Shown: positions 30,354 through 52,412 of the stretch, piece by piece
Layout of the letters: every line of letters starts with the position of its first letter
How positions within the stretch are numbered: the first letter of the stretch is position 1
Source of the DNA: Bacteroidota bacterium
Lineage (GTDB): Bacteria > Bacteroidota > Bacteroidia > B-17B0 > Aurantibacillaceae
Length of the DNA: 64,000 nucleotides
Reading direction: 5' to 3'
Assembly: GCA_021156365.1 (NCBI GenBank)
Contig: JAJNDK010000006.1
Coordinates: forward strand, 186,001-250,000
Position numbers and translations under genes: made by a program
The notes under the pieces: model-generated
The model's input: the letters and a program-made list of their open reading frames with translations, nothing else
Told to the model about the DNA's origin: nothing
The model's database searches: none

Positions 30354-33300
30354 CTACTGAGGTTTTATGGTTCTCGGTGCAGGACCGCTTGGCTCTCCAA
30401 CTTTTGGTTCCGTTTTCGTTTCTTCTTTTGGTTTGGTTTCCTCTTTTTTAGGTTGGATCACACGCGGTGAATTCGTTTGTGGCGTGGTCGTTGGTTCCGT
30501 CGCTTTCGGAGCCGTGGTTGTTGTCGTAGCCGGTGTCACCTTCGGTTGTTGAGTTGTAGGCGTTATCGTTTGCGTTTTAGGTGGCTCTACCTTCGGAGTC
30601 GTAATGATCTTTGGAGTGGTAGTGTTTCCCGGTTTGCTTCCGGTAGAACATGGCCCCTGCGAATCGCCGTGTGCCTGGTGTGCAGGCCATGCGCTTGTAG
30701 GGATCTGTATTTGCTGCGGATTGCTGGTGTTGCCCGGAGGATAGTGACAAATGGTGATCATCGGATCGTTGTTATTATTATTTCCGTTTCCATTCCCATT
30801 TCCTCCATTGTTATTTCCTCCGCTATTGGTAGCGCAACTACCCTGGTAATCGCCATGTGCCTGGTGAGTAGCCCAGTCGCTGGTAGGTATCTGGATCGTT
30901 TGCGGCGTACTATTAGGACCGTTCGGGTAATGGCAGATGGTGATGAGATCCGTAGTTGCATTCTCTCTCGGCGGTTCCTCGTATTTGAATGTTACTGTTT
31001 TCGAATCATTTCCGCCTGCATTGGTAGCACTTACCGTAAATGTAGTATAGGTATTCGTTAGGGTATAGCTGAAAGCAAATGCCAGCGTATTCGGATTGTA
31101 AGTGAATGGGATCGTTCCACCGTTATCGGAAACAACGTTGATCTCGCTGGAAGAAGAAACATTCTGTATCGTAGCAGTAACACTGATCTCTTTCTTATTG
31201 GTCTTGAAAGGGCTTTCCGTTGGTTTGATGATCGTGATGGAAGGAGCAGGAGGCATTTTCCGGAAGATCGCTACCGTTTTACTATCCGATCCTGCAGTGT
31301 TGGTACCGGTGATAACAACCGTATTGTTCCCGTAATTCAGGTTGGCATCGAAACTTACATTGCCGTTATTGTACATAAAAGTAGTAACGGATGCCCCGTT
31401 CACGGTAATGGATACCTGTGATGACATGGTAATGAACGTAATATTGGCAGTCACTGTTTGTGTACTGTTTCCGGTAGTACCGTTGTTAGAGGTAATAGTA
31501 ACAACCGGTTTAGGGGAGAGGTTGCCAGGATTGGAAATTCCACCCAGCTTGTTGTAAACGATCGTTACTGTTTTGCTGTCGTATCCCGCTGCATTCGTTC
31601 CTGTGATCGTAACCGTATTATTGCCGATGTTCAGATTGGCATTCAGGGTTACTGTTCCATTGTTGAAAGTGAAATTGGTTGTTGCAGTTCCGTTCACCTG
31701 CACGTTTACCTGTGATGCAGTAAATACATTGGTTACAGTTGCCACAATATTTTGTACGGCTAAACCGGTGGTTGAATTGACTGTAGAAGGTGTAATGAAG
31801 GTTACTACCGGTTTGTCAATACCTGTTTCTGCCTGTCTTGGTTTGGTATAGTCAATATACGCTGTTTTGGTATCGCTGCCTGCAGCATTGGTACCGGTAA
31901 TTTTAACCGTATTATTGCCTAATGTGAGGTTAGCTGTGAAAGCCACATTCCCATTAGCGAAGGTAAAGTTAGTGACCGGCGCATTGTTCACCAGCACATT
32001 CACCTGTGTAGCGTTGATCACATTGGTCACCGTTGCAGTAATTGGCTGTGTAGACAGCATAGTAGTGGTAATCCCGTTTCCAGCTGGAGTAGTGATGGTT
32101 ACTACCGGCTTATCGATGCCGGCATTCACACTGGTTTTGTTATACTGGATACTGATCGTTTTGCTGTCTGTTCCCGCAGCATTTGTTCCTGTTACCGTTA
32201 CCGTGTTATTACCAATATTCAGATTGGCAGTGAAACTTACATTGCCATTGCTGAAGCTAAAGTTCGGTACAGCAATTCCGTTCACCGTTACATTTACCTG
32301 AGTAGCATTGATCACGTTGGTCACATTGGCAAGTACCTGCTGTGTAGCGGTGTTTACAGTTGAATTAACGGTAGATGGTGTGGTTATAATAACAACAGGT
32401 TTCTCAATACCTGTATTCACTGCAGTTTTGTTGTACAGGATAGTTACTGTTTTACTGTCAGAACCTGCCGTATTTGTTCCTGTAATGGCTACGGTATTGT
32501 TTCCTAAATTCAGGTTGGCAGTGAGATTTACATTTCCATTGCTGAAGCTGAAATTACCTGTAGCTACACCATTCACCAGCACACTTACCTGTGATGCATT
32601 GATCACATTGGTCACCGTTGCAGTGATGTTTTGAGATACACTGGTCACCGTTGAATTTGTTGTGCCCGGATTGGTTATCGTAACAACCGGTTTGTCGATG
32701 CCGGCATTCACACTTGTTTTATTATAAAGGATGGTCACTGTTTTACTGTCAGAACCAGCAGCGTTCGTTCCGGTGATCGTTACTGTATTGTTACCTATAT
32801 TCAAATTCGCCGTGAAATTTACAGTACCGTTATTGAAGCTGAAATTACCTGTAGCCATACCATTCACCAGCACACTCACCTGCGATGCATTGATCACATT
32901 GGTTACGGTTGCAGTAATGGTTTGAGCAGCATTGGCTACTGCTGAATTTTGGGTATTAGGTGTGGTGATCGTAACTACAGGCTTGTTAATGCCCGCATTC
33001 ACAGCCGATTTGTTGTAGGTTATAGATACTGTTTTACTGTCGGAGCCTGCTGTATTTGTTCCTGTTACAGTTACAGTGTTGTTCCCCAGATTCAGGTTGG
33101 CTGTTAATGTTACTGCACCGTTATTATAGCTAAAGCTGCTCGTCGGAACTCCGTTGATCAATACAGCCGCCTGTGAGGCACTCGTAATGTTGGTAATGGT
33201 AGCTACAATGGCCTGGCTCGGCACCAGTGTGGTAGTGTTTGCGCTACCCGGATTGGTGATCGTAACAACAGGTTTTGGTAATAGGGTAGCCGTACCGAGC

Positions 33301-36290
33301 TTTTTCATGAAGGTCATCACAACAGTCTTGCTATCGCTTCCGCCGCTGTTCGTTCCTTTGATCGTATAGGTATTACTCCCCGATGCAAGCGTAACACTGA
33401 AAGTCACAATATGTGTTACATTATCGTAAGTGAACGGAACAGCTGTAGCCCCCGATGTGATATTAATATCAGAAGCTGTATTTACATTCAGTACTTCGGC
33501 TGTAACCGTATACGTTTGTGTAGGTGAAAGGAAAGGAGAAACCTGTGGGTTCAGTACGGTTACGATCGGTAATAATACTGTCGGCTGTGTAAAGCGCTCT
33601 ATAACCTGTGTTTTACTGTCGCTGCCTCCCTGGTTCGAAACGGCAATGGTAATGATATTGCTTCCAAGGTTCAGATTTACCGGCACTTCTACTTCTTTGG
33701 TAATTGTATTGAATGTAAAGTTAGAAGCGGCACCGTTTACACTTACTGTTACTTCTGCCTGTGAGTTGACATTAACAGTAGTCGCTTTCACCAGGAACTG
33801 TGCATCGGAAGTGATCAAAGGGTTGCTGGCTGGATTCACAATGGTTACGGAAGGTTTTGGAATTGCAGTAACAGGAACAGAGTAGTTGATCGTTAATGAC
33901 TTGGTATCACTGCCTGCCTGATTGGTCGCCGTGATCACAAAGGTATTGGCTCCCTGGTTCAGGTTCGGGGAGAACATGATCTGCTGCGCCGCGGCGTTGT
34001 GTGTAAAAGGAACTGTCACATTGTTGCCATCGGTAATTGTTATCGTTTTCGAGGTGTTCACATTCAGGATCTGTGCAAGTACATTTCCGGGTGTAACACT
34101 TGTAGCGAACGGATTTACGCCCGGATTCAGTATAGTGATCACAGGTTTTGCCATCGCTGCATCTTTACGCTCGATCGTCTGGGTTTTGCTGTCGTTGCCA
34201 AAATTATTTGCCGCGGATATTTTAACCGTATTCATTCCTACATTCAGTGTTACAGGAATAGTTACCGTTTGATTGCTGGTATTATACGTGAAAGGAACAA
34301 TCGCATTGTTGACCAGCACGGAAATATTGCTTTGATCGGCTACATTGGCAACCGTTGCAATAACGTTGGCAGAAGCAGAATTGCTTGCACTCGGATTCAC
34401 GCCCGGGTTGATGATCGTTACAAGTGGTGGGGAGCCCGCTTCTTTGTAATTGATCGTAGCTGTTTTTGTATCAGAGCCTGCATTGTTCGTTCCGGTTACA
34501 ACAACCGTATTCGAGCCTGTGTTCAGGTTGGTTGTGAAATTCACAAAACCATACTGGTTGAAGGTGAAATTCGTTACCGGCATTCCGTTGAACTGAATAT
34601 TTACCTGGTTAGCAGAACTTACGTTTGATACATGTGCCGTTACATAAAACACCGGGTTAATGGATTGGAACGGAGAAGAAGAAGGATTATTAAAAGAAAC
34701 CACCGGTTTTTGTTCGGCAGGAGGAATGATAACAGGTGTGGTCGGGTTCACCGGATTGTAGGTTACAAATACCTGTTGTGCATCGTTCCCGGCTGTGTTA
34801 TATGCACTCACAATAACGGCGTTATTGCCCTGGATCAACGGCGCTACAAAACTTACCGAACCATTGTACGGATTGAAATTAAAGTTGGTGATAGCATATC
34901 CGTTGGCCGAAATAGCGATGTTGGAGCTTCCGGATACATTTGCCACAGATGCATTCACGTTTACGGAAGGAGAGCTTGTAATGTAATTGTTAGAAGGATA
35001 AGTGATCAGAACTTTTGGCGGGAGTTCCTGTATTTGTGTTGGATTGGTAACTACCGGGTTTTGCGGATTCGCATAATTAATGGTTAATGATTCATTGTCC
35101 TGTCCTGCCGGGCTACTTGCCACAATGTTCACCTGGTTAGCTCCCGGAGCGAGATATGTTTCAAACGAGAAAGATCCGTTGTTCGGATTAAAGCTGAATC
35201 CATTGGCAGGAGCAGAACCGTTAATGGTTATGTTCAGCTGATTGGCAGAATTGATGTATTGCGCTACACCTGTAACCTGTTGTGTCGGGTTGGTAGTAGT
35301 GTGTGGATTAGCGGAGGGAGAATAGATGGAAATGATAGGTTTAGGCTGGTTGTTAGCGGTTGTATAGGTATTCGGGTCCGTTTGAACCGTTGTTGTATTG
35401 GTAGTGGTTGTGTTCGGGTTGGTGTTGTAGGAACCACGTGCCCTGCCCCAGATAGTAAAGATCAGATTGGCAGCCGTATAATGATAAATATCGTTTTTAA
35501 GTGGCTTCGGAGAAGAGGCTGCATATTGCTGCCCGTCCAGTGTATTCGTAAAAGGGAAAGAAACTTTGTGCTCTATTACAAAAGCAACATGTTTGCTGAA
35601 ACGGATCCCGACACCAATCCCGAGAGAAGGTGTAAAAACGAAGGAACCGTCTTTATTATTCCCGTCTGCATAGGTTTCGAAAGTAGCATTACCGCTGTTA
35701 TAGAACGATTTTACATTGGAAACAGACGGAGAGGCAGGCAATTTCGTGAAATCATAAACGTGGCTGGAATCATCCAGTGCATTGATACGGGTTTTGTATT
35801 TGGTGACACCAAGTCCGCCAAAAACATGGAAAATGAAACGGGTTCTTTTTTCCATTGCCGGAAAATTCAGCTTCAGCTCCAGGTCGCCCTCCGCAAGATG
35901 TGTGAAATAATTGTTGTAGAAATAGCCAGGGGTGCTGTCGTATCTTACAATGCTGTTGTGTGTACCATTGAGAGCCTGGTTGAATTCCAGTGCGTCGTTC
36001 TTGGTATTGTCATATCCCGTGCTGTTACCACTGAGGTAGCGAAATCCGAGTGAGAACCCGAGTGGTGCATCTTCCCTGCGGTTGAGGATGCGTTCGATAT
36101 TAAAACCACCGGCTAAGCCTGCATAATTTTTTTTAAGGTCGCTGGTCTGCCAGGTTCCACCTCCGTTGAGGCCCAACCGCCATTTCGGGTATTTGTCGGA
36201 GCTCAGGTACGTACTCTGGGAAAATCCCTGGAAAAGTGTTCCGAAAATAAATAAAAGGTTAAGAATAGTGCGGGTAGAAATTGTTCTCAT
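30354..36290 (-). CDS. Giant cell-surface protein: N-terminal beta-barrel-like domain, about 15 Ig-like repeats, two Cys/His motifs, Pro/Thr tail
   Basis: A 1978-residue exported protein. Order: signal peptide (1-24, ending GFSQ); outer-membrane barrel-like domain (about 30-285) with Gly/aromatic strands such as LGLNGGGTW and SLGIGVGIRF; about 15 tandem Ig-like repeats of 90-100 residues (about 315-1770), each beginning KPVVTI.NP and ending NNTV.ITGTN.AGSDSKTV; two copies of a CHYPxG...HGDxxGxC motif (about 1783-1818 and 1845-1880) joined by an Asn/Gly linker; then a Pro/Thr/Lys-rich tail. No type IX sorting domain is present, which fits anchoring by the barrel. The ATG at 36290 is preferred over a TTG 21 nt upstream because the signal peptide then starts normally. 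The number of strands in the barrel and the ligand are not known. Confidence 0.85.
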   Translation of the reverse strand: MRTISTRTILNLLFIFGTLFQGFSQSTYLSSDKYPKWRLGLNGGGTWQTSDLKKNYAGLAGGFNIERILNRREDAPLGFSLGFRYLSGNSTGYDNTKNDALEFNQALNGTHNSIVRYDSTPGYFYNNYFTHLAEGDLELKLNFPAMEKRTRFIFHVFGGLGVTKYKTRINALDDSSHVYDFTKLPASPSVSNVKSFYNSGNATFETYADGNNKDGSFVFTPSLGIGVGIRFSKHVAFVIEHKVSFPFTNTLDGQQYAASSPKPLKNDIYHYTAANLIFTIWGRARGSYNTNPNTTTTNTTTVQTDPNTYTTANNQPKPIISIYSPSANPHTTTNPTQQVTGVAQYINSANQLNITINGSAPANGFSFNPNNGSFSFETYLAPGANQVNIVASSPAGQDNESLTINYANPQNPVVTNPTQIQELPPKVLITYPSNNYITSSPSVNVNASVANVSGSSNIAISANGYAITNFNFNPYNGSVSFVAPLIQGNNAVIVSAYNTAGNDAQQVFVTYNPVNPTTPVIIPPAEQKPVVSFNNPSSSPFQSINPVFYVTAHVSNVSSANQVNIQFNGMPVTNFTFNQYGFVNFTTNLNTGSNTVVVTGTNNAGSDTKTATINYKEAGSPPLVTIINPGVNPSASNSASANVIATVANVADQSNISVLVNNAIVPFTYNTSNQTVTIPVTLNVGMNTVKISAANNFGNDSKTQTIERKDAAMAKPVITILNPGVNPFATSVTPGNVLAQILNVNTSKTITITDGNNVTVPFTHNAAAQQIMFSPNLNQGANTFVITATNQAGSDTKSLTINYSVPVTAIPKPSVTIVNPASNPLITSDAQFLVKATTVNVNSQAEVTVSVNGAASNFTFNTITKEVEVPVNLNLGSNIITIAVSNQGGSDSKTQVIERFTQPTVLLPIVTVLNPQVSPFLSPTQTYTVTAEVLNVNTASDINITSGATAVPFTYDNVTHIVTFSVTLASGSNTYTIKGTNSGGSDSKTVVMTFMKKLGTATLLPKPVVTITNPGSANTTTLVPSQAIVATITNITSASQAAVLINGVPTSSFSYNNGAVTLTANLNLGNNTVTVTGTNTAGSDSKTVSITYNKSAVNAGINKPVVTITTPNTQNSAVANAAQTITATVTNVINASQVSVLVNGMATGNFSFNNGTVNFTANLNIGNNTVTITGTNAAGSDSKTVTILYNKTSVNAGIDKPVVTITNPGTTNSTVTSVSQNITATVTNVINASQVSVLVNGVATGNFSFSNGNVNLTANLNLGNNTVAITGTNTAGSDSKTVTILYNKTAVNTGIEKPVVIITTPSTVNSTVNTATQQVLANVTNVINATQVNVTVNGIAVPNFSFSNGNVSFTANLNIGNNTVTVTGTNAAGTDSKTISIQYNKTSVNAGIDKPVVTITTPAGNGITTTMLSTQPITATVTNVINATQVNVLVNNAPVTNFTFANGNVAFTANLTLGNNTVKITGTNAAGSDTKTAYIDYTKPRQAETGIDKPVVTFITPSTVNSTTGLAVQNIVATVTNVFTASQVNVQVNGTATTNFTFNNGTVTLNANLNIGNNTVTITGTNAAGYDSKTVTIVYNKLGGISNPGNLSPKPVVTITSNNGTTGNSTQTVTANITFITMSSQVSITVNGASVTTFMYNNGNVSFDANLNYGNNTVVITGTNTAGSDSKTVAIFRKMPPAPSITIIKPTESPFKTNKKEISVTATIQNVSSSSEINVVSDNGGTIPFTYNPNTLAFAFSYTLTNTYTTFTVSATNAGGNDSKTVTFKYEEPPRENATTDLITICHYPNGPNSTPQTIQIPTSDWATHQAHGDYQGSCATNSGGNNNGGNGNGNGNNNNNDPMITICHYPPGNTSNPQQIQIPTSAWPAHQAHGDSQGPCSTGSKPGNTTTPKIITTPKVEPPKTQTITPTTQQPKVTPATTTTTAPKATEPTTTPQTNSPRVIQPKKEETKPKEETKTEPKVGEPSGPAPRTIKPQ
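30975..35345 (-). repeat. Tandem array of about 15 Ig-like coding repeats
   Basis: Repeats of about 270-300 bp encode the Ig-like modules of the giant surface protein. The six repeats at about 31520-33280 are the most alike: consecutive copies are 97 residues (291 bp) long with long shared stretches, for example VTNVINASQVSVLVNG in two adjacent copies. Outer repeats are more diverged. The same periodicity produces a ladder of spurious open frames on the other strand. Confidence 0.85.
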
Positions 36291-44419: not shown

Positions 44420-47059
44420 ATGAATAAAAAGATACCCTTTCCGTTTTTTTGCAGCCTTCTCTTCGTACTGTTTTGCTCCGGTACCGGATTCTCACAGACT
44501 CCCGGAACCCTGTGGGCCCATAACGCAGGTGCAGAAGGAAAAAGTATAGCGGCCGATGCTGCCGGTAATGTTTATACCACCGGCTTTTATAACGGTACAC
44601 ACGATTTCGATCAGGGACCGGATAGTTTAAAATATACTTCTGTGAATAACAGCAGTGATATTTTTATTCAAAAGCTGGATGCTTCCGGGAACCTTGTATG
44701 GGCAAAGTCACTGGGAGGAAAATATACCGACAACGGGAATTCCATCGCAGTGGATGCTTCCGGTAACGTTTATATCGCCGGATTTTTTTATGATACACTG
44801 GATGCGGATCCTGGCACCAATGTACTGCAATACATATCAAAAGGAGGAAAGGATATACTCATCCAGAAATACGATGCTTCCGGAAACCTGCTTTGGGCCG
44901 ATCAGTTCGGGGAAACGGGAGATGATGAGGCAAAAGGAATTACCGTTGATGGTTCCGGTAATGTATATGTAACAGGTGCTTATTATGACACCGTGGATTT
45001 TGACCCCGGAGCTGCAGTAGCCAATCTTGCTCCCACAGGTGCAGGTGATGTATTTGTTTTAAAACTAACTGCTTCCGGCGCGTATTCATGGGCTAAAACA
45101 GTGGGAGGAAATTATTTAGGAGTTGTTACTGATGTTGGGTTTGCTATTGCTCTGGATGGTACCGGCAATGTATATGTAACGGGTTCTTTTTTAGGTGCAG
45201 GAGATTTTAATCCGGGCACAGGAACGGCTACGCTTACCTCTGCCGGCAACGCAGATGTTTTTGTGCTCAAGCTTACATCAGCAGGTGTTTACTCCTGGGC
45301 AAGAAGAATAGGAGCGGCCAATTATGAGGAAAGCTCGGCTATTGCGATAGATGGATCTTCCAATGTACTCGTAACCGGATATTTTGTCGGGACCGTGGAT
45401 TTTGACCCTTCCGGTTCCACAGCGAATCTTAGTTCTTTGCAAACCAATTATAAAGACGCTTTTGTATGGAAGCTGACTTCTGCAGGTAATTATTCATGGG
45501 CCAGAAGATCCGGCAGTACTTCAACCGCGCAGGACGGAGGAAACGGAATCGCAACCGATGCATCCGGAAATGTATATGTGACCGGAGGTTTTGGTTTCAA
45601 TAGTACCAACACAGATGTTTATATCCAGAAATGGAATTCGGCCGGCACCCTGCAATGGGATGAAAACATCGCTACCAGTTCTACTTCGTCGAGAGGAAAT
45701 GCTATTGCTTATAGAAATGCCGCTATTTATGTTACGGGATATTTCAGTAATTCCTTTTCAGGTACGGATGATTTTCACCCGGGTACCTATGTAATGTCTT
45801 TGTCTCCTTCCAACGGGAATGGTTTTGTTGTGAAGATGAAGGAGTGTACTGCTACCAGCAATGTGGTCATTGCTTCTTTCTGTACCGGCGGCACGTATAC
45901 TTTTGGCAATCAAACGCTGACTACGATCGGATCGTACACCGGACAGTTCCTTACTACTAACGGTTGTGATTCTACAGTTACCCTGCATTTAGTGATCGAA
46001 AATCCTTTACCTGTTGTTACGGCCAATGCTTCAGTCGATTCGGCATGCGGAGGCCAGTCGGTGATCTTCACAGGTGGAGGTGCGAATACCTATACCTGGT
46101 CGGATGGGATCACGGATGGCGTACCGCATCCGGTTTCTGCAACACAAACCTACACAGTTACAGGTGTCGATACCAACAATTGTCAGGCAACAGCGGTAGT
46201 CGATGTATTGGTCGTTCCGCCTCATGTGCAGGAGATCTGTGTGGTAACAGTTGATTCTGCCCTTGCCGATCACACTATTATTATCTGGGAAAAGCCAATG
46301 GATCTTTCCGGCATCGATAGCTTTTTTGTGTATCGTGAGATCACACTGAACAACTACCAGAAAGTGGGAGCTGTTCACAAAGATTCCTTAAGTGAGTTCC
46401 ATGATTTTGGAGCTAATCCCAACTCAACGAATTATAAATACAAGATCGCAACGCTCGATACCTGCGGAAATACAGGCACCTATGGTTTGTATCATAATAC
46501 GATCCAATTGCAGTATTTCAGTTCGGGCAATTTCCAGTGGACCAATTACGAGATCGAAAGTTTGCCGAACCCGGTTGCTTCGTATAATTTTTACCGCGAC
46601 GATAATTCCACCGGTAATTTTCAATTACTGCAGATCATTCCCGGTGGTAATAACAGTTATACCGATGTGAACTATGCTACGTATCCGAATGCCAGCTACC
46701 GGGTAGATGTGAACTGGGCGGTCGCTCATTTCTGTGCACCAACAAGGGGAGCGATCAATACTTCCCGATCCAATATCAAATCGCCTTCTTCTGCAATTGG
46801 CCTGCATACAAACACTGCCACGTATGTAACCATTTATCCGCAACCAGCCAAAGATGCGATCAACATTGAATTTGATAAAACAAGAACGGAAGTAAACATC
46901 TCTGTATATGACAATCTTGGAAAATTAGTACTGGATTTAAAAAGCACAAATACAAAAATAGAAACGATCGATATTTCCGGGTTGGCAGAAGGAATGTATT
47001 GGCTGAAGCTGGTATCGGACACTGAGATCATGACGAAAAAAATTGCAATTGTAAAATAA
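44420..47059 (+). CDS. SBBP-repeat surface protein with type IX sorting domain, copy 1
   Basis: An 879-residue secreted protein. Signal peptide (1-25, ending GFSQ); a beta-propeller of SBBP repeats (about 30-475) built on the unit D(A/G)SGNVYVTGxFxGTxDFDPG and closing with VKMKEC; a Cys-containing linker plus Ig/PKD-like module (about 480-610); fibronectin III-like segment (about 615-790) that includes PTRGAINTSRSNIKSPSS; and a Por secretion C-terminal sorting domain (about 800-879; IYPQPAKDAINIE to KKIAIVK). The sorting domain directs export through the type IX system and cell-surface attachment. First of three tandem paralogues; the next gene starts 1 nt after its stop. Confidence 0.9.
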   Translation: MNKKIPFPFFCSLLFVLFCSGTGFSQTPGTLWAHNAGAEGKSIAADAAGNVYTTGFYNGTHDFDQGPDSLKYTSVNNSSDIFIQKLDASGNLVWAKSLGGKYTDNGNSIAVDASGNVYIAGFFYDTLDADPGTNVLQYISKGGKDILIQKYDASGNLLWADQFGETGDDEAKGITVDGSGNVYVTGAYYDTVDFDPGAAVANLAPTGAGDVFVLKLTASGAYSWAKTVGGNYLGVVTDVGFAIALDGTGNVYVTGSFLGAGDFNPGTGTATLTSAGNADVFVLKLTSAGVYSWARRIGAANYEESSAIAIDGSSNVLVTGYFVGTVDFDPSGSTANLSSLQTNYKDAFVWKLTSAGNYSWARRSGSTSTAQDGGNGIATDASGNVYVTGGFGFNSTNTDVYIQKWNSAGTLQWDENIATSSTSSRGNAIAYRNAAIYVTGYFSNSFSGTDDFHPGTYVMSLSPSNGNGFVVKMKECTATSNVVIASFCTGGTYTFGNQTLTTIGSYTGQFLTTNGCDSTVTLHLVIENPLPVVTANASVDSACGGQSVIFTGGGANTYTWSDGITDGVPHPVSATQTYTVTGVDTNNCQATAVVDVLVVPPHVQEICVVTVDSALADHTIIIWEKPMDLSGIDSFFVYREITLNNYQKVGAVHKDSLSEFHDFGANPNSTNYKYKIATLDTCGNTGTYGLYHNTIQLQYFSSGNFQWTNYEIESLPNPVASYNFYRDDNSTGNFQLLQIIPGGNNSYTDVNYATYPNASYRVDVNWAVAHFCAPTRGAINTSRSNIKSPSSAIGLHTNTATYVTIYPQPAKDAINIEFDKTRTEVNISVYDNLGKLVLDLKSTNTKIETIDISGLAEGMYWLKLVSDTEIMTKKIAIVK

Positions 47060-47060
47060 A

Positions 47061-49733
47061 ATGAATATGAAAAATTTTAAGAACAAAATAGGTCTGCTGG
47101 CCGGAATTGCTTTTGCAGGAATAAGCATGGCCCAGGATATTGGTTTCGAATGGGTACGCTCAGTGGGTGGTTCGGGTGCCAATAACAGCCAGGCATATGC
47201 TGTGGTCACAGATGCTGCGGGCAATGTTTATACAACGGGCAGTTTCGAAGGAGTGAATGATTTTAATCCCGGTACTACCACCAATTTCCTTTCTTCTGCC
47301 GGAGGTACCGATGTGTTCATTCAAAAAATGGATGCAGCAGGAAATTATCTGTGGGCGAAAAAGATCGGGGGCACGGGGGCTGATGCCGGAAGTTCTATTG
47401 CCCTGGATGCATCGGGTAATGTATGTATTACCGGTAGTTTTTCGGGAACAGTGGATCTGGATCCGGGTACCGGTTCACAAGCGGTTACCTCTGCAGGTTC
47501 TACAGATATATTTGTTTTGATATTAGATGCTTCCGGGAATTTTGTGCGGGCATACAACTATGGAGGCACGGGAAGTGACTTAGGTAAAACTATCAGCACG
47601 GATGGGAGTGGAAATGTATATGTAAGCGGCGATTTTAATGCTACGGTTGATTTTGATCCGACAGCAGGTACTTCCAATTACACTTCACTCGGGTCTTCAG
47701 ATATGTTTTTTCAAAAGATAGATGCAACGGGAGCTGTAATGTGGACCAAACAGATCGGGGGAACAGGAGCTGAATCCTGTTACACATTAAAAAGTGATGC
47801 CTCCGGAAACATTGCTGCCAGTGGCTTTTTTAGGAACACGGTCGATTTTGATCCGGATGGAGGAATACAAAACCATATCTCAGTAGGTAATTCTGATATT
47901 TTCATTTTACGTCTTAATTCTTCCGGAGCCTACGTGTGGGCAAAAGCAGCAGGCGGAACCAGCAATGAAATAGGAAAAGCCATCACGTTTGATAACTCAG
48001 GGAATGTACTGATCACAGGAACCTTTAACCAGACCGTGGATTTTGATCCGGGTGCAGGAACGTTTAATCTCACGGCTACCGGCGGCGGATTTGATATGTT
48101 TATCCAGAAGCTGGATGCGGCGGGGAATTTTATCTGGGCAGGAGCAGTGTATGGCTCGAGTGATGACAATCCATTAGGCATTTGCGTATATCCGGATAAT
48201 AAAATACTGATCGGCGGAGAATACAGGGGCACAACGGACTTCGACCCGGGTGCGGGTACCTTTACGCTGGGAACAGGATTGGCTGCCGGGTTTATTCTGA
48301 AGCTCGATTCCACTGGTGTATTCAATTGGGTGAAAGCGATCACGACCAATGGAAATATCGGGATCATCAGCTCGATCACTCTTCATTCTTCCGGAACCAT
48401 CTATACCGCCGGATATTTCAGCGATAACATCGTTGGGAACGGACCGGACTTCAATCCCGGTAATGCAGTGAACATGGTTTCTACAACAGGCAACAACGAC
48501 ATTTTTGTATTGAAGCTTAAGCCTTGTACAGCTTATACTCTCAGCATGAATGATTCGATCTGTAGCGGACAGACCTATACATTCGGTGCGCAGAGTTTAA
48601 CTACTGCCGGCACGTATACGGAAACATTTATTACCACCACGGGTTGCGACAGTGTGGTAACACTCAACTTATCGGTAAATTCTTTGCCGGTGGTTATCGC
48701 TTCTTCTACGTATTCTGTTACCTGTCCTAATCAGGAGATCATGCTTACAGGCGCAGGCGCTCATTCCTATTCCTGGACGGGTGGTGTAACCGACAGTATT
48801 CCTTTTTCAATCACTGTTTCTTCTTCGTATACTGTTACAGGAACAGATACAATGACCGGCTGTTCCAACACGGCCGCTGTCAGCGTCACTATAGAAGATC
48901 CGTATGGACAAACGCTCTGCGTGGTAACGGTTGATTCTCTGACAGCCAATCATAATGTGGTGGTCTGGGAAAAGCCTGCATCATTGGGAAGCATAGACAG
49001 TTTTTATATTTACCGCGAGATCACGACCAACACCTACCAGCAGATAGCTGTGGTGCACAGAGATTCGCTCAGTGAGTATCATGATATCGCTGCGGATCCG
49101 AATGCAACCAATTACAAATACAAAGTAACCACAAAAGATACCTGTGGTAACGAAAGCCCGATGAGTCTGTATCATAATTCGATCCACCTGCAGTATTTCG
49201 GATCAGGCAATTTTCAGTGGACAGCTTATGAGATCGAAAGTACGGGCAATCAGGTGGCTTCCTATAATTTTTACAGGGATGACAATGCAAGCGGGAATTT
49301 TGTGCTACTGCAGGTAATACCGGGTGGTAACACTTCTTTCTCCGATGTGAATTACGCTTCTTTCCCTTTAGCTCGTTATCGTGTAGATGTGAATTGGCTG
49401 AACGGAACGATCTGTACACCGACTCGCGGAGCGATCAACACTTCACGTTCCAATATCAAATCGCCTTCATCTGCGATCGGATTGCAGGCTCCATTGAATG
49501 AGCACGCGGTGAAAATATATCCGCAGCCTGCAGCAGAAATGCTGATCGTGGAAACAGCTGAACCAGTGAAGCAGGTAGAATTGACCGACTGCCTGGGCAG
49601 GGTAGTGCTTACACAAACAGAGCTGGGAACGAAGAGATCGGTCATCGATGTTTCCATGCTGGCAAGCGGAATGTATATGCTGAATGTGACATCGGCAGGA
49701 GGGAAGTACAGCAAAAAGATAGTGATCGAATAG
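47061..49733 (+). CDS. SBBP-repeat surface protein with type IX sorting domain, copy 2
   Basis: An 890-residue paralogue with the same architecture: signal peptide (ending SMAQ), SBBP propeller (about 25-480), Ig/PKD-like module with SYTVTGTDTMTGC, fibronectin III-like segment containing the near-invariant CTPTRGAINTSRSNIKSPSS, and a sorting domain (IYPQPAAEMLIVE to YSKKIVIE). It starts 1 nt after copy 1 (TAAAATG), so it is translationally coupled; an alternative ATG lies two codons further in. Copies differ mostly in propeller loops and agree in the module before the sorting domain. Confidence 0.9.
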   Translation: MNMKNFKNKIGLLAGIAFAGISMAQDIGFEWVRSVGGSGANNSQAYAVVTDAAGNVYTTGSFEGVNDFNPGTTTNFLSSAGGTDVFIQKMDAAGNYLWAKKIGGTGADAGSSIALDASGNVCITGSFSGTVDLDPGTGSQAVTSAGSTDIFVLILDASGNFVRAYNYGGTGSDLGKTISTDGSGNVYVSGDFNATVDFDPTAGTSNYTSLGSSDMFFQKIDATGAVMWTKQIGGTGAESCYTLKSDASGNIAASGFFRNTVDFDPDGGIQNHISVGNSDIFILRLNSSGAYVWAKAAGGTSNEIGKAITFDNSGNVLITGTFNQTVDFDPGAGTFNLTATGGGFDMFIQKLDAAGNFIWAGAVYGSSDDNPLGICVYPDNKILIGGEYRGTTDFDPGAGTFTLGTGLAAGFILKLDSTGVFNWVKAITTNGNIGIISSITLHSSGTIYTAGYFSDNIVGNGPDFNPGNAVNMVSTTGNNDIFVLKLKPCTAYTLSMNDSICSGQTYTFGAQSLTTAGTYTETFITTTGCDSVVTLNLSVNSLPVVIASSTYSVTCPNQEIMLTGAGAHSYSWTGGVTDSIPFSITVSSSYTVTGTDTMTGCSNTAAVSVTIEDPYGQTLCVVTVDSLTANHNVVVWEKPASLGSIDSFYIYREITTNTYQQIAVVHRDSLSEYHDIAADPNATNYKYKVTTKDTCGNESPMSLYHNSIHLQYFGSGNFQWTAYEIESTGNQVASYNFYRDDNASGNFVLLQVIPGGNTSFSDVNYASFPLARYRVDVNWLNGTICTPTRGAINTSRSNIKSPSSAIGLQAPLNEHAVKIYPQPAAEMLIVETAEPVKQVELTDCLGRVVLTQTELGTKRSVIDVSMLASGMYMLNVTSAGGKYSKKIVIE

Positions 49734-49769
49734 TAGAATTTGAATTTTCAGTAAATCAAAATACAGGGT

Positions 49770-52412
49770 ATGAAAAAAATTATCAGTTGCGGAATGCTCT
49801 TTTTATCGGTACAGCTTTTATTGGCACAGAATGCAAGTTTCGACTGGGCCAAACGAATTGGAGGTACTACTGCCGATAAAGGGAATGCTATTGTATCGGA
49901 TGCCAGTGGCAATGTATATACGATCGGCTCTTTTGAAGGCGCTATTGATTTTAATCCGGGGCCTGGAGCTGCGGTGTTGATCTCCAATGGAAATGCCGAT
50001 GTGTTTGTAGAAAAACTGGATGCATCCGGAAATTTTGCCTGGGTGAAACGGATCGGTGGAACCGGTGCGGATTACGGAAATTCTATCGCCATAGACGGCA
50101 ACGGGGATCTGTACATCATTGGCTCGGTGATCGGGACAGTGGATATGGATCCGGGAACAGCAGTGCTGAACTATACATCAGCGGGCGAAGATGTTTTTAT
50201 TGAAAAGCTGGATGCCGCCGGAAACCTGATCTGGGTAAAGGAGATCGGAGGAAGCGGCTATGAATATGCAAGTAAGATAAAAACGGATGCAGCCAATAAT
50301 ATTTATTTTTCCGGGCAGATCAATTCCGTAACTGATTTTGATCCGGGTGCAGGCGCAGCTCTTCTTACTCCTGTGTTATCTACGGATGGCTTCTTTGCAA
50401 AATGGGATGCAGCCGGAAATTATATGTGGGCTAAACAACTTTCTGTCGACCAGTCTTATTTACGTGCTCCTTTTATGGATGTGGATGCAGCCGGAAATGT
50501 TTATGCAACCGGAAATTTCAGAAATTCGGTAGATCTCGATCCGGGTGCAGGTATGAGCAATTTTACGAGCAATGGCATGGAAGATTATTATGCACTGAAG
50601 CTGGATGCTTCCGGAACACTGCTATGGGCACACACGTTTGGCGGAACAAGTATTGATTTCGGAAATTCGATCGCAGCCGATGGAAGCGGCAATGCATATA
50701 TAACCGGAACTTTTTCAGGAAGTATAGATTTTGATCCGGGTGCAGCTACTAATGATCTGATCGGTGGTCTTGCGGATGTGTTCATTCAGAAACTGGATGC
50801 CGCCGGAGATTATGTGTGGGCAAAACAGATCACCGGCACGGGATATAACGATGTGGGTTATATTACAATTGATGCCACAGGAAATCCTTTGCTGACAGGC
50901 GCATATGACGGAACAAGCGACTTCGATCCGGATCCTTCCACCGATCATTACCTCACTGTTTCAGGCTTCAAGGATATTTATATAGAAAAGCTGGATGCAA
51001 TGGGAAATTTTTCCTGGGTAAAAACAGTGAATGGAACAAGCAATGCAATAGGGCTGGGTTTATACGGCGATGCATCGGGTAATATATATGCTACCGGTTA
51101 CTTTTCCGCCACCGGTGATTTTGATCCGGGAGCTGACAGTGCAGAGATCACAGCTGTCGGAAGTCAGGATGCTTTTATCCTAAAACTGAAAGCTTGCACA
51201 CCTTACAATCTCACTGCGTCAAGGACTTTGTGCACAGGAGAGAATTATGTCTTCGGTTCACAAACCCTCAATACAGTCGGAACGTATACGGAAACATTCA
51301 TTTCAACTGCAGGTTGTGACAGTATGGTTACGCTGACGATCACTGCTATCGTTCCGCTTCCGGTAGTGACTGCGAATGTGTCGCAGCAAAACGTATGTCC
51401 GAACCAGGCTGTTGTTTTTACGGGCAGCGGAGCTTCTTCCTATGTATGGTCCGGTGGCGTGACGGATGGAGTTCCTCACAATGTGGGAGCCACCACTACA
51501 TATACTGTAACAGGAACAGATGCAAGCGCATGTTCCAATACGGCAAGTGTGACGGTAATAGCAGTGCAGGCTCCTGTTCAGCAGGTATGTGTGGTAACGG
51601 TTGATTCAGCCCTTGCAAATCACACCGTCATTGTATGGGAAAAACCATCCGATCTGGGCGGCATTGATAGTTTTTATCTTTACCGGGAGATCACGCTGAA
51701 CAACTACCAGCGGATCGCAGCTATCCATAAAGACTCCCTGAGTGAATGCCATGATATGACTGCGAATCCAAACAGCACGAATTACAAATACAAATTGTCG
51801 ACGCTTGATACCTGCGGGAACGAAGGAGTGAAGGGCCTTTTTCACAACACGATCCATTTGCAGTATTTCGGGCTGGGGAATTTCCAGTGGACCAATTACC
51901 TGATAGAAAATACGGCGAACCCGGTGGCATCCTATAATTTTTACCGCGATGATAATTCCACGGGTGTCTTTAATCTTTTGCAGGTGCTGCCCGGAAATAA
52001 CAATTCATTCACGGATGTGAATTATGCTTCGTTCCCGAATGCAAGTTATCGGGTGGATGTGAGCTGGCAGTCTTCGATGATTTGTACGCCTACACGTGGT
52101 GCGATCAATACCTCGCGTTCCAATATCAAATCGCCTTCTTCGACAATAGGTTTGCAAACAGCGTTGAACGACAGGTCAGTGAAGATCTATCCGCAGCCTG
52201 CAAATGACAGATTATATATTGAAACAGACAAACAATTCAAAACACTGGGTGTGGAACTTACAGATGCTTTGGGCCATCAGCTGATAAAGCAGGAATATGC
52301 AAACAGCGGAAGTACGGACCTGGATATCTCAGCAATTGCTGCAGGTGTATACACATTAAAAGTAAAATTTGAAGGAGGAAGTATACTTAAAAAGATCGTG
52401 GTGACGAAATAG
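49770..52412 (+). CDS. SBBP-repeat surface protein with type IX sorting domain, copy 3
   Basis: An 880-residue third paralogue: signal peptide (ending LLAQ), SBBP propeller (about 25-480), linker with CTPYNLTASRTLCTGENY, Ig/PKD-like module, fibronectin III-like segment with CTPTRGAINTSRSNIKSPSS and a sorting domain (IYPQPANDRLYIE to LKKIVVTK). It follows copy 2 by 36 nt without a terminator, so the three genes likely form one operon that ends at the strong hairpin at 52423-52476. Confidence 0.9.
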   Translation: MKKIISCGMLFLSVQLLLAQNASFDWAKRIGGTTADKGNAIVSDASGNVYTIGSFEGAIDFNPGPGAAVLISNGNADVFVEKLDASGNFAWVKRIGGTGADYGNSIAIDGNGDLYIIGSVIGTVDMDPGTAVLNYTSAGEDVFIEKLDAAGNLIWVKEIGGSGYEYASKIKTDAANNIYFSGQINSVTDFDPGAGAALLTPVLSTDGFFAKWDAAGNYMWAKQLSVDQSYLRAPFMDVDAAGNVYATGNFRNSVDLDPGAGMSNFTSNGMEDYYALKLDASGTLLWAHTFGGTSIDFGNSIAADGSGNAYITGTFSGSIDFDPGAATNDLIGGLADVFIQKLDAAGDYVWAKQITGTGYNDVGYITIDATGNPLLTGAYDGTSDFDPDPSTDHYLTVSGFKDIYIEKLDAMGNFSWVKTVNGTSNAIGLGLYGDASGNIYATGYFSATGDFDPGADSAEITAVGSQDAFILKLKACTPYNLTASRTLCTGENYVFGSQTLNTVGTYTETFISTAGCDSMVTLTITAIVPLPVVTANVSQQNVCPNQAVVFTGSGASSYVWSGGVTDGVPHNVGATTTYTVTGTDASACSNTASVTVIAVQAPVQQVCVVTVDSALANHTVIVWEKPSDLGGIDSFYLYREITLNNYQRIAAIHKDSLSECHDMTANPNSTNYKYKLSTLDTCGNEGVKGLFHNTIHLQYFGLGNFQWTNYLIENTANPVASYNFYRDDNSTGVFNLLQVLPGNNNSFTDVNYASFPNASYRVDVSWQSSMICTPTRGAINTSRSNIKSPSSTIGLQTALNDRSVKIYPQPANDRLYIETDKQFKTLGVELTDALGHQLIKQEYANSGSTDLDISAIAAGVYTLKVKFEGGSILKKIVVTK

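Follow-up and report, generated by a model that had tools for sequence, protein, structure and literature searches.

A predicted eight-stranded barrel carrying a long chain of Ig-like domains: a candidate accessory of type B CTD/PorP/PorE complexes in Bacteroidota

Does a protein chain of about 60 nm lie inside the outer membrane, as the barrel at its root implies, or outside, as its length and composition suggest? This clear question is raised by a single open reading frame in a 64,000-nt stretch of DNA, hereafter called the window (Bacteroidota bacterium, assembly GCA_021156365.1, contig JAJNDK010000006.1, positions 186,001-250,000 of the forward strand). Based on the sequence of the window, an original prediction had described the encoded protein as a barrel-like domain followed by about 15 Ig-like repeats and a Cys/His-rich tail, and had suggested a surface stalk or adhesin with its own anchor, belonging to an undescribed surface system. 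The frame is the single match in its own 5.3 Mb genome, and its start, MRTI, is matched by the closest relative, L038 (Table 1).

Table 1 Features of the barrel-Ig reading frame (residue numbers refer to the 1978-aa protein)
Feature	Positions in the window	Strand	Basis
Whole coding sequence, 1978 aa	30354..36290	(-)	open from ATG at 36290 to stop at 30354
Signal peptide, residues 1-24, ends FSQ|S	36219..36290	(-)	sequence; matching start in L038
Predicted 8-stranded outer-membrane barrel, residues 37-280	35451..36182	(-)	AlphaFold2, Foldseek, VIA; profile kinship with controls
Asn/Thr-rich linker, residues 281-316	35343..35450	(-)	mostly low model confidence; variable among relatives
15 Ig-like domains, residues 317-1773	30972..35342	(-)	own-repeat HMM, Pfam Cadherin-like, model of domain 15
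Cys/His unit 1, residues 1786-1819	30834..30935	(-)	sequence pattern, model
Asn/Gly linker separating the two Cys/His units, residues 1820-1847	30750..30833	(-)	sequence; low pLDDT
Cys/His unit 2, residues 1848-1881	30648..30749	(-)	sequence pattern, model
Pro/Thr/Lys-rich tail, residues 1882-1978, ends RTIKPQ	30357..30647	(-)	sequence; relatives' ends

The computed domain order bears out the predicted one; towards the C-terminal end there are two Cys/His units, with the Asn/Gly linker between them and the Pro/Thr/Lys tail behind. About 15 repeats had been expected, and an HMM built from the protein's own repeats finds 15 Ig-like domains (E 1.8e-17 to 6.2e-41), a result that is circular as the HMM stems from the same protein. 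Independent support is given by the Cadherin-like match of Pfam on the whole protein (6.8e-9, above cut-off) and by a model of domain 15 together with both Cys/His units (mean pLDDT 85.5), in which domain 15 adopts an Ig fold (VIA Z 9.0-10.9) resembling LdtMt2 domains, glucodextranase domain B and titin-type Ig domains. Further Pfam matches, Glucodextran_B (1.3e-4) and Laminin_G_2 (0.023), fall below cut-off, NCBIfam yields nothing credible (its sole hit, at 0.031, lies far under the cut-off), and a PDB sequence search with the whole protein gave no useful match. The OmpA domain PF00691 has no match at E up to 1. A type IX secretion system (T9SS) sorting domain, which the original prediction had not expected in this protein, is matched by neither the Pfam nor the NCBIfam models, even as the sorting-domain model TIGR04183 gives 150 scored matches in the same genome; T9SS cargo with a type A or type B CTD was rejected, the C-terminal sorting domain being unmatched. 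The order of domains had been called unusual, and indeed neither Pfam nor NCBIfam names a family with the order barrel, Ig, Cys/His. Judging by titles and abstract openings, none of the papers listed in searches on Ig or barrel members of T9SS complexes deals with this protein, and a literature search on adhesins of Crocinitomicaceae found nothing.

For the barrel, an AlphaFold2 model of residues 25-425 was computed from an alignment including 25 relatives (mean pLDDT 82.9 over these residues), and displays eight strands of transmembrane length followed by one Ig domain. OmpA is the top match in Foldseek, and in VIA the model aligns with the OprF barrel (Z 16.3, rmsd 2.5, 133/135 residues aligned) and with OmpA (Z 15.8, rmsd 2.4, 134 aligned), with OprF, PagL, OmpA and other small barrels tied within 1 Z unit. 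A PDB search with the barrel profile returned one hit only, a designed barrel at E 0.23. Hence, the N-terminal domain is predicted to be a transmembrane barrel and not a soluble non-barrel fold, which would give the protein an anchor of its own, as had been proposed. A free-standing inverse autotransporter was rejected on the strand count of eight in the model.

Profile comparisons place this barrel among known ones. At 1e-12, the barrel profile is matched in 15 of 395 genomes sampled from the phylum; three of these hold the Ig-type protein (the window's own, G055 and G095), and the other 12 encode 13 barrel proteins, with open frames 535-614 aa long, every one of which bears an OmpA domain after the barrel (11 above the Pfam cut-off and two, L088 and L089, below). 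Alignment of the Ig-type barrel with five barrel-OmpA proteins by hhalign gives E 8.5e-34 over 233 columns. At the same time, the T9SS PorG model NF052316 is matched by 18/24 family members at E up to 1 (best 1.1e-9), and hhalign of the barrel against PorG reaches 98.3% (E 2.4e-14), compared to 30% for a PorP control, whose 21 aligned columns fall on the signal peptide (E 5.5e-4), and less than 1% for reversed PorG and reversed OmpA-type controls. Going by these profiles, the barrel is related both to T9SS PorG and to barrels bearing an OmpA domain. That it is a true PorG was rejected: the window barrel scores only 24.6 bits against NF052316 (E 1.9e-5; cut-off 130), the genome match and the relatives examined are also under this cut-off, and a separate PorG above it is encoded in the same genome (G000:C19:99425). 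A stand-alone barrel copy of 265 aa was noted at L035:5023-5817 (+), directly before the barrel-Ig gene of that locus.

In 60 related genomes (the window's own included), the whole protein is matched in 23 and the barrel profile in 19 at about 1e-60 or better. These 19 include G022 (1.5e-60, split over contigs), G037 with the barrel alone was left out of the family, and G027, in which a lipobox replaces the barrel, was counted among the 41 genomes without it. Seven more loci stem from MAGs of Bacteroidota, Flavobacteriales and Fluviicola; one of these, L031, duplicates the contig of L038. Since relatives repeat the succession of signal peptide, barrel and Ig array, the architecture is more than chance, and on the strength of these matches the window protein is a member of a conserved Bacteroidota family. 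Ig domains range in number from 3 to 18 across 23 counted proteins, some of them ended by contig ends; L031, L006 (a fragment) and L049 (near-identical to L048) were left out of the counts of Ig domains and Cys/His units.

For an eight-stranded barrel behind a Sec signal peptide, both ends should lie in the periplasm, as established for OmpA. According to the available part of PMC12635249, F. johnsoniae PorG, predicted to be eight-stranded as well, has a periplasmic C-tail. With both barrel ends thus expected on the periplasmic side, and with an OmpA domain in the corresponding place of related barrel proteins, the Ig chain should start in the periplasm, and from this topology and these relatives we infer that it probably stays there. 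The original idea of the Ig chain as a surface stalk or adhesin consequently lacks support from the barrel, since eight predicted strands leave no pore through which the chain could pass. An outward route might resemble that of intimin-type inverse autotransporters or depend on a helper from the cluster. Also the missing T9SS sorting domain weighs against a surface location.

Other properties, however, favour exactly this rival, in which the barrel sits in the outer membrane, the chain is passed outward and the Cys/His units form an adhesin or metal-binding tip. As a rule, long Ig arrays are found outside the cell. An Ig domain is about 4 nm long, giving a chain of about 60 nm for 15 domains, and the normal periplasm is narrower than that. 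A chain of such length, strongly variable among relatives, is unlike a fixed-width spacer and counts against periplasmic placement. Additionally, only 6.6% of the residues in the Ig region are charged, close to the 5.5% of a giant CHU_C-bearing PKD protein of the same genome, an exported protein, and unlike the 26-28% of four PorE-like proteins, so the region looks extracellular in its low charge. One further protein, L111, carries a Cys/His unit together with a T9SS sorting domain.

An informative variant is found in G027, where a protein with Ig chain and IKPR tail (L055:7101-9323 (+)) has a lipobox, recognized by eye, in place of the barrel. It follows a PorP gene (PF11751) and a PD40 protein in which no OmpA domain was detected and which is not a PorE orthologue. 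The available part of PMC5080379 describes an acidic export motif that marks some Bacteroidetes surface lipoproteins; the G027 protein has RHHREVV after the Cys and so lacks an acidic motif, which speaks against surface exposure only as far as the motif, not established for this lineage, applies. Because of chain length, length variation and low charge, the surface stalk is kept as second best to a periplasmic accessory, and we consider it less likely than not. Either outcome would be of consequence: if periplasmic, the chain is an unusual giant periplasmic structure; if on the surface, a route past an eight-stranded barrel is needed.

The gene neighbourhood bears on what the protein might serve. 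In the window, a universal stress protein, a polyprenyl synthetase-like gene and a short-chain dehydrogenase (all by eye) are the neighbours, which suggest no function; the upstream ones are the same in the same-genus relative L038. Elsewhere in the window (44420-52412 (+)), three proteins of similar size (879, 890 and 880 aa) are encoded in tandem, each with a T9SS sorting domain as well as SBBP repeats above Pfam cut-offs. In many relatives, the cluster comprises a CHU_C (type B CTD) protein, PorP/SprF, a PorE-like protein and then the barrel-Ig gene, usually with a sugar nucleotidyl transferase downstream. Scans of the neighbours in L042 and L043 identified PF11751 (PorP_SprF) and an OmpA/TPR/PD40 protein in both, and PF13585 (CHU_C) in L042 only, where the PorE-like protein reaches 410 bits with T9SS_PorE (cut-off 600) and 457 bits with CHU_0125_OmpA (cut-off 620), under the cut-off in both cases.

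Among 12 genomes hand-picked from those with family hits, eight have PorP in the cluster, with a PorE-like gene between PorP and the barrel-Ig gene (the near-identical G009 and G015 both count among the eight); it is not in the cluster in G000, G002 and G052, and G021 is unjudgeable as the contig ends. The chance of a PorP that near was estimated at most 0.09 per genome, for which the binomial calculation, ignoring shared ancestry, gives 6e-7. Further linked cases are G011 (L040) and, for the PorE part only and at a contig end, G034, and further unlinked ones are L032, G055 (L054), G095 (L119) and G031 (L041, with only 2.7 kb upstream); in L033, L034, L039, L051 and L052 the upstream sequence is too short to judge. 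A divergent CHU_C-PorP pair lies upstream in three MAG loci (L035, L036 and L037). The PorPs of these three have two cysteines within the last 45 residues, just as the track-linked SprF has C-tail cysteines; seven PorPs inspected from the same-strand clusters end in SPR[YFT]L and have no C-tail cysteines.

Orthologues of PorE itself occur in 16/19 genomes with the barrel-Ig gene versus 20/41 without it (P = 0.011, uncorrected for ancestry). Presence was scored from a single match of at least 590 bits; G001 (446 bits), G002, where the match is split in two, and G034, where a contig end leaves it partial, were also taken as having the gene, whereas G017 (78% complete), G052 and G055 were scored absent. 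Given the 20 genomes with PorE and no barrel-Ig gene, PorE does not need the latter. Among the regions listed, the PorE-like gene stands directly before the sugar nucleotidyl transferase in L149, L153 and L155 (by eye), so that, as far as gene order tells, the barrel-Ig gene resembles an optional insertion in this cluster.

The same data could be read in another way, namely that the protein is a general OmpA-like envelope tether reaching the wall and that its PorP/PorE neighbourhood is a historical accident in some lineages. Outside the Ig family, related barrels come with an OmpA domain, and out of 14 extended loci, L112-L125 (13 barrel-OmpA and the Ig-type L119), only L118 shows PorP. In the window's own genus (G000, G002), the barrel-Ig gene lies outside such clusters, apart from the PorP/PorE genes; in the window's genome a PorE orthologue, PorP and a CHU_C protein of 2462 residues are found together on another contig. 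That PorE orthologues exist without the barrel-Ig gene fits a general tether as well. Nevertheless, we regard this as rather improbable, as PorP/SprF neighbours recur in two arrangements, the same-strand cluster and the divergent pair, PorE is enriched in the genomes with the gene at the significance given above (again uncorrected for ancestry), and the window protein has no OmpA domain.

The C-terminal Cys/His units add a further element. The protein has only four cysteines (residues 1786, 1819, 1848 and 1881), one at each end of a unit, and each unit is modelled as strand-strand-helix; the Foldseek and VIA lists for the combined model of domain 15 and the units are filled by Ig domain matches. 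Across 13 proteins, 75 Cys-framed units were collected with a pattern requiring a Cys pair at set spacing (other spacings would escape). Among these, 52 hold a full His3-Asp set, made up of one His behind the first Cys, two more towards the end of the unit and an Asp, 22 hold none of it and one a single His, all but one of the 23 incomplete units being from L034 and L035. In both loci (L034:331-3108 and L035:6031-11772 (+)), arrays of Cys-framed units without His and Asp are mixed with full units. This all-or-none behaviour of His and Asp, with both Cys kept (as the pattern demanded), suggests a disulfide of structural role next to a separate, putative metal site; the unit is thus probably a disulfide-held putative metal site, judged from its residue pattern. 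His-bearing units number from none to 11 per family member and, by inspection, many units tend to go with few Ig domains (L047: 4 Ig domains, 11 units; window protein: 15 and 2), with L042, L044 and L053 having no units.

The unit is not confined to the family. At 1e-6 it is present in 15/296 genomes of the phylum, the window's own included, and other architectures bearing it comprise prepilin-like proteins and lipoproteins (both by eye) as well as L111, an HYR protein whose T9SS sorting domain is above the Pfam cut-off. The prepilin-like proteins of L096, L097, L102-L104 and L106 (by eye; 462-469 aa) come from one other family of the phylum. No model covers the unit in Pfam (five proteins searched) or NCBIfam (four of them), a PDB search with its profile gave one hit only (E 5.2), and a literature search for the motif found nothing. 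It hence constitutes a small domain, unnamed in the Pfam and NCBIfam searches made here, that recurs in other Bacteroidota envelope proteins. Behind the units, several complete relatives end in a short basic motif such as IKPR, GRPR or LKPR.

Cysteines near the C-terminus and a PorG-related barrel could also point to a client of the moving GldJ/K/N track that resembles PorG and is disulfide-joined at its Cys-bearing end like SprF and PorG, for which use of periplasmic C-tail cysteines is reported in the available part of PMC12635249. All four cysteines of the window protein are indeed near its C-terminus. They occur in pairs, however, within folded units that lie about 1500 residues away from the barrel; units of this kind are absent from several relatives, the seven PorPs inspected from the same-strand clusters have no C-tail cysteines, and the genome keeps a PorG of its own. 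A track client is therefore very improbable.

Taken together, the preferred reading is an outer-membrane-anchored accessory of a type B CTD/PorP/PorE surface-anchoring complex, for which we put the likelihood just short of even. The original prediction had seen here a free-standing, undescribed surface system; with many relatives beside type B CTD, PorP and PorE-like genes, an accessory of a known system is likelier. Published work proposes that PorE-like, PorP-like and type B proteins form static complexes, some type B CTD proteins being static because PorE ties their PorP-like carriers to the wall (available parts of PMC9143113 and PMC12618676). As an accessory of this kind, the protein would be exported by Sec and its predicted PorG/OmpA-type eight-stranded barrel inserted in the outer membrane. 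By topology and relatives, the Ig chain, Cys/His units and tail would start and probably remain in the periplasm. Gene order suggests that the family was recruited to type B CTD/PorP-SprF/PorE-like clusters, where it probably stabilises or spaces a static complex, presumably in contact with PorP or PorE. In the weakest step, the Cys/His units, as probable disulfide-held His3-Asp metal sites, might bridge chains or bind the wall. The best reading is accordingly an envelope tether of varying length that serves static type B/PorP/PorE complexes as an accessory. More tentatively, and less likely than not, the protein may be a fourth, undescribed component of these complexes, made of a PorG-related barrel, a giant periplasmic Ig chain of variable length and a tip of a new class of disulfide-held His3-Asp metal domains exchangeable for Ig domains in evolution. 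The way in which type B CTD proteins, PorP-like carriers and PorE are joined at the surface of Bacteroidota is so far a matter of proposal, and a conserved extra gene in their clusters offers a direct target for studying such complexes.

Compared with known systems, the nearest folds to Ig domain 15 include LdtMt2 Ig domains and glucodextranase domain B, with which only the Ig domain is shared. Intimin/invasin inverse autotransporters likewise have an N-terminal barrel followed by an Ig chain. The intimin barrel, however, has 12 strands, whereas the window barrel is predicted to have eight, has no Pfam match of that kind and continues into a disordered Asn/Thr linker. With OmpA/OprF-type proteins, the predicted eight-stranded N-terminal barrel is shared, but 15 Ig domains and Cys/His units take the place of the C-terminal OmpA domain. 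T9SS PorG (NF052316, PF19573) belongs to a related eight-stranded barrel lineage, yet the window barrel lies far under its cut-off, is followed by about 1700 residues and has no short cysteine-bearing tail directly behind it. As to type B CTD-PorP/SprF-PorE complexes, the available parts of PMC9143113 and PMC12618676 do not mention a barrel-Ig-type component, and it is in or beside the gene clusters of precisely these complexes that many barrel-Ig relatives are encoded.
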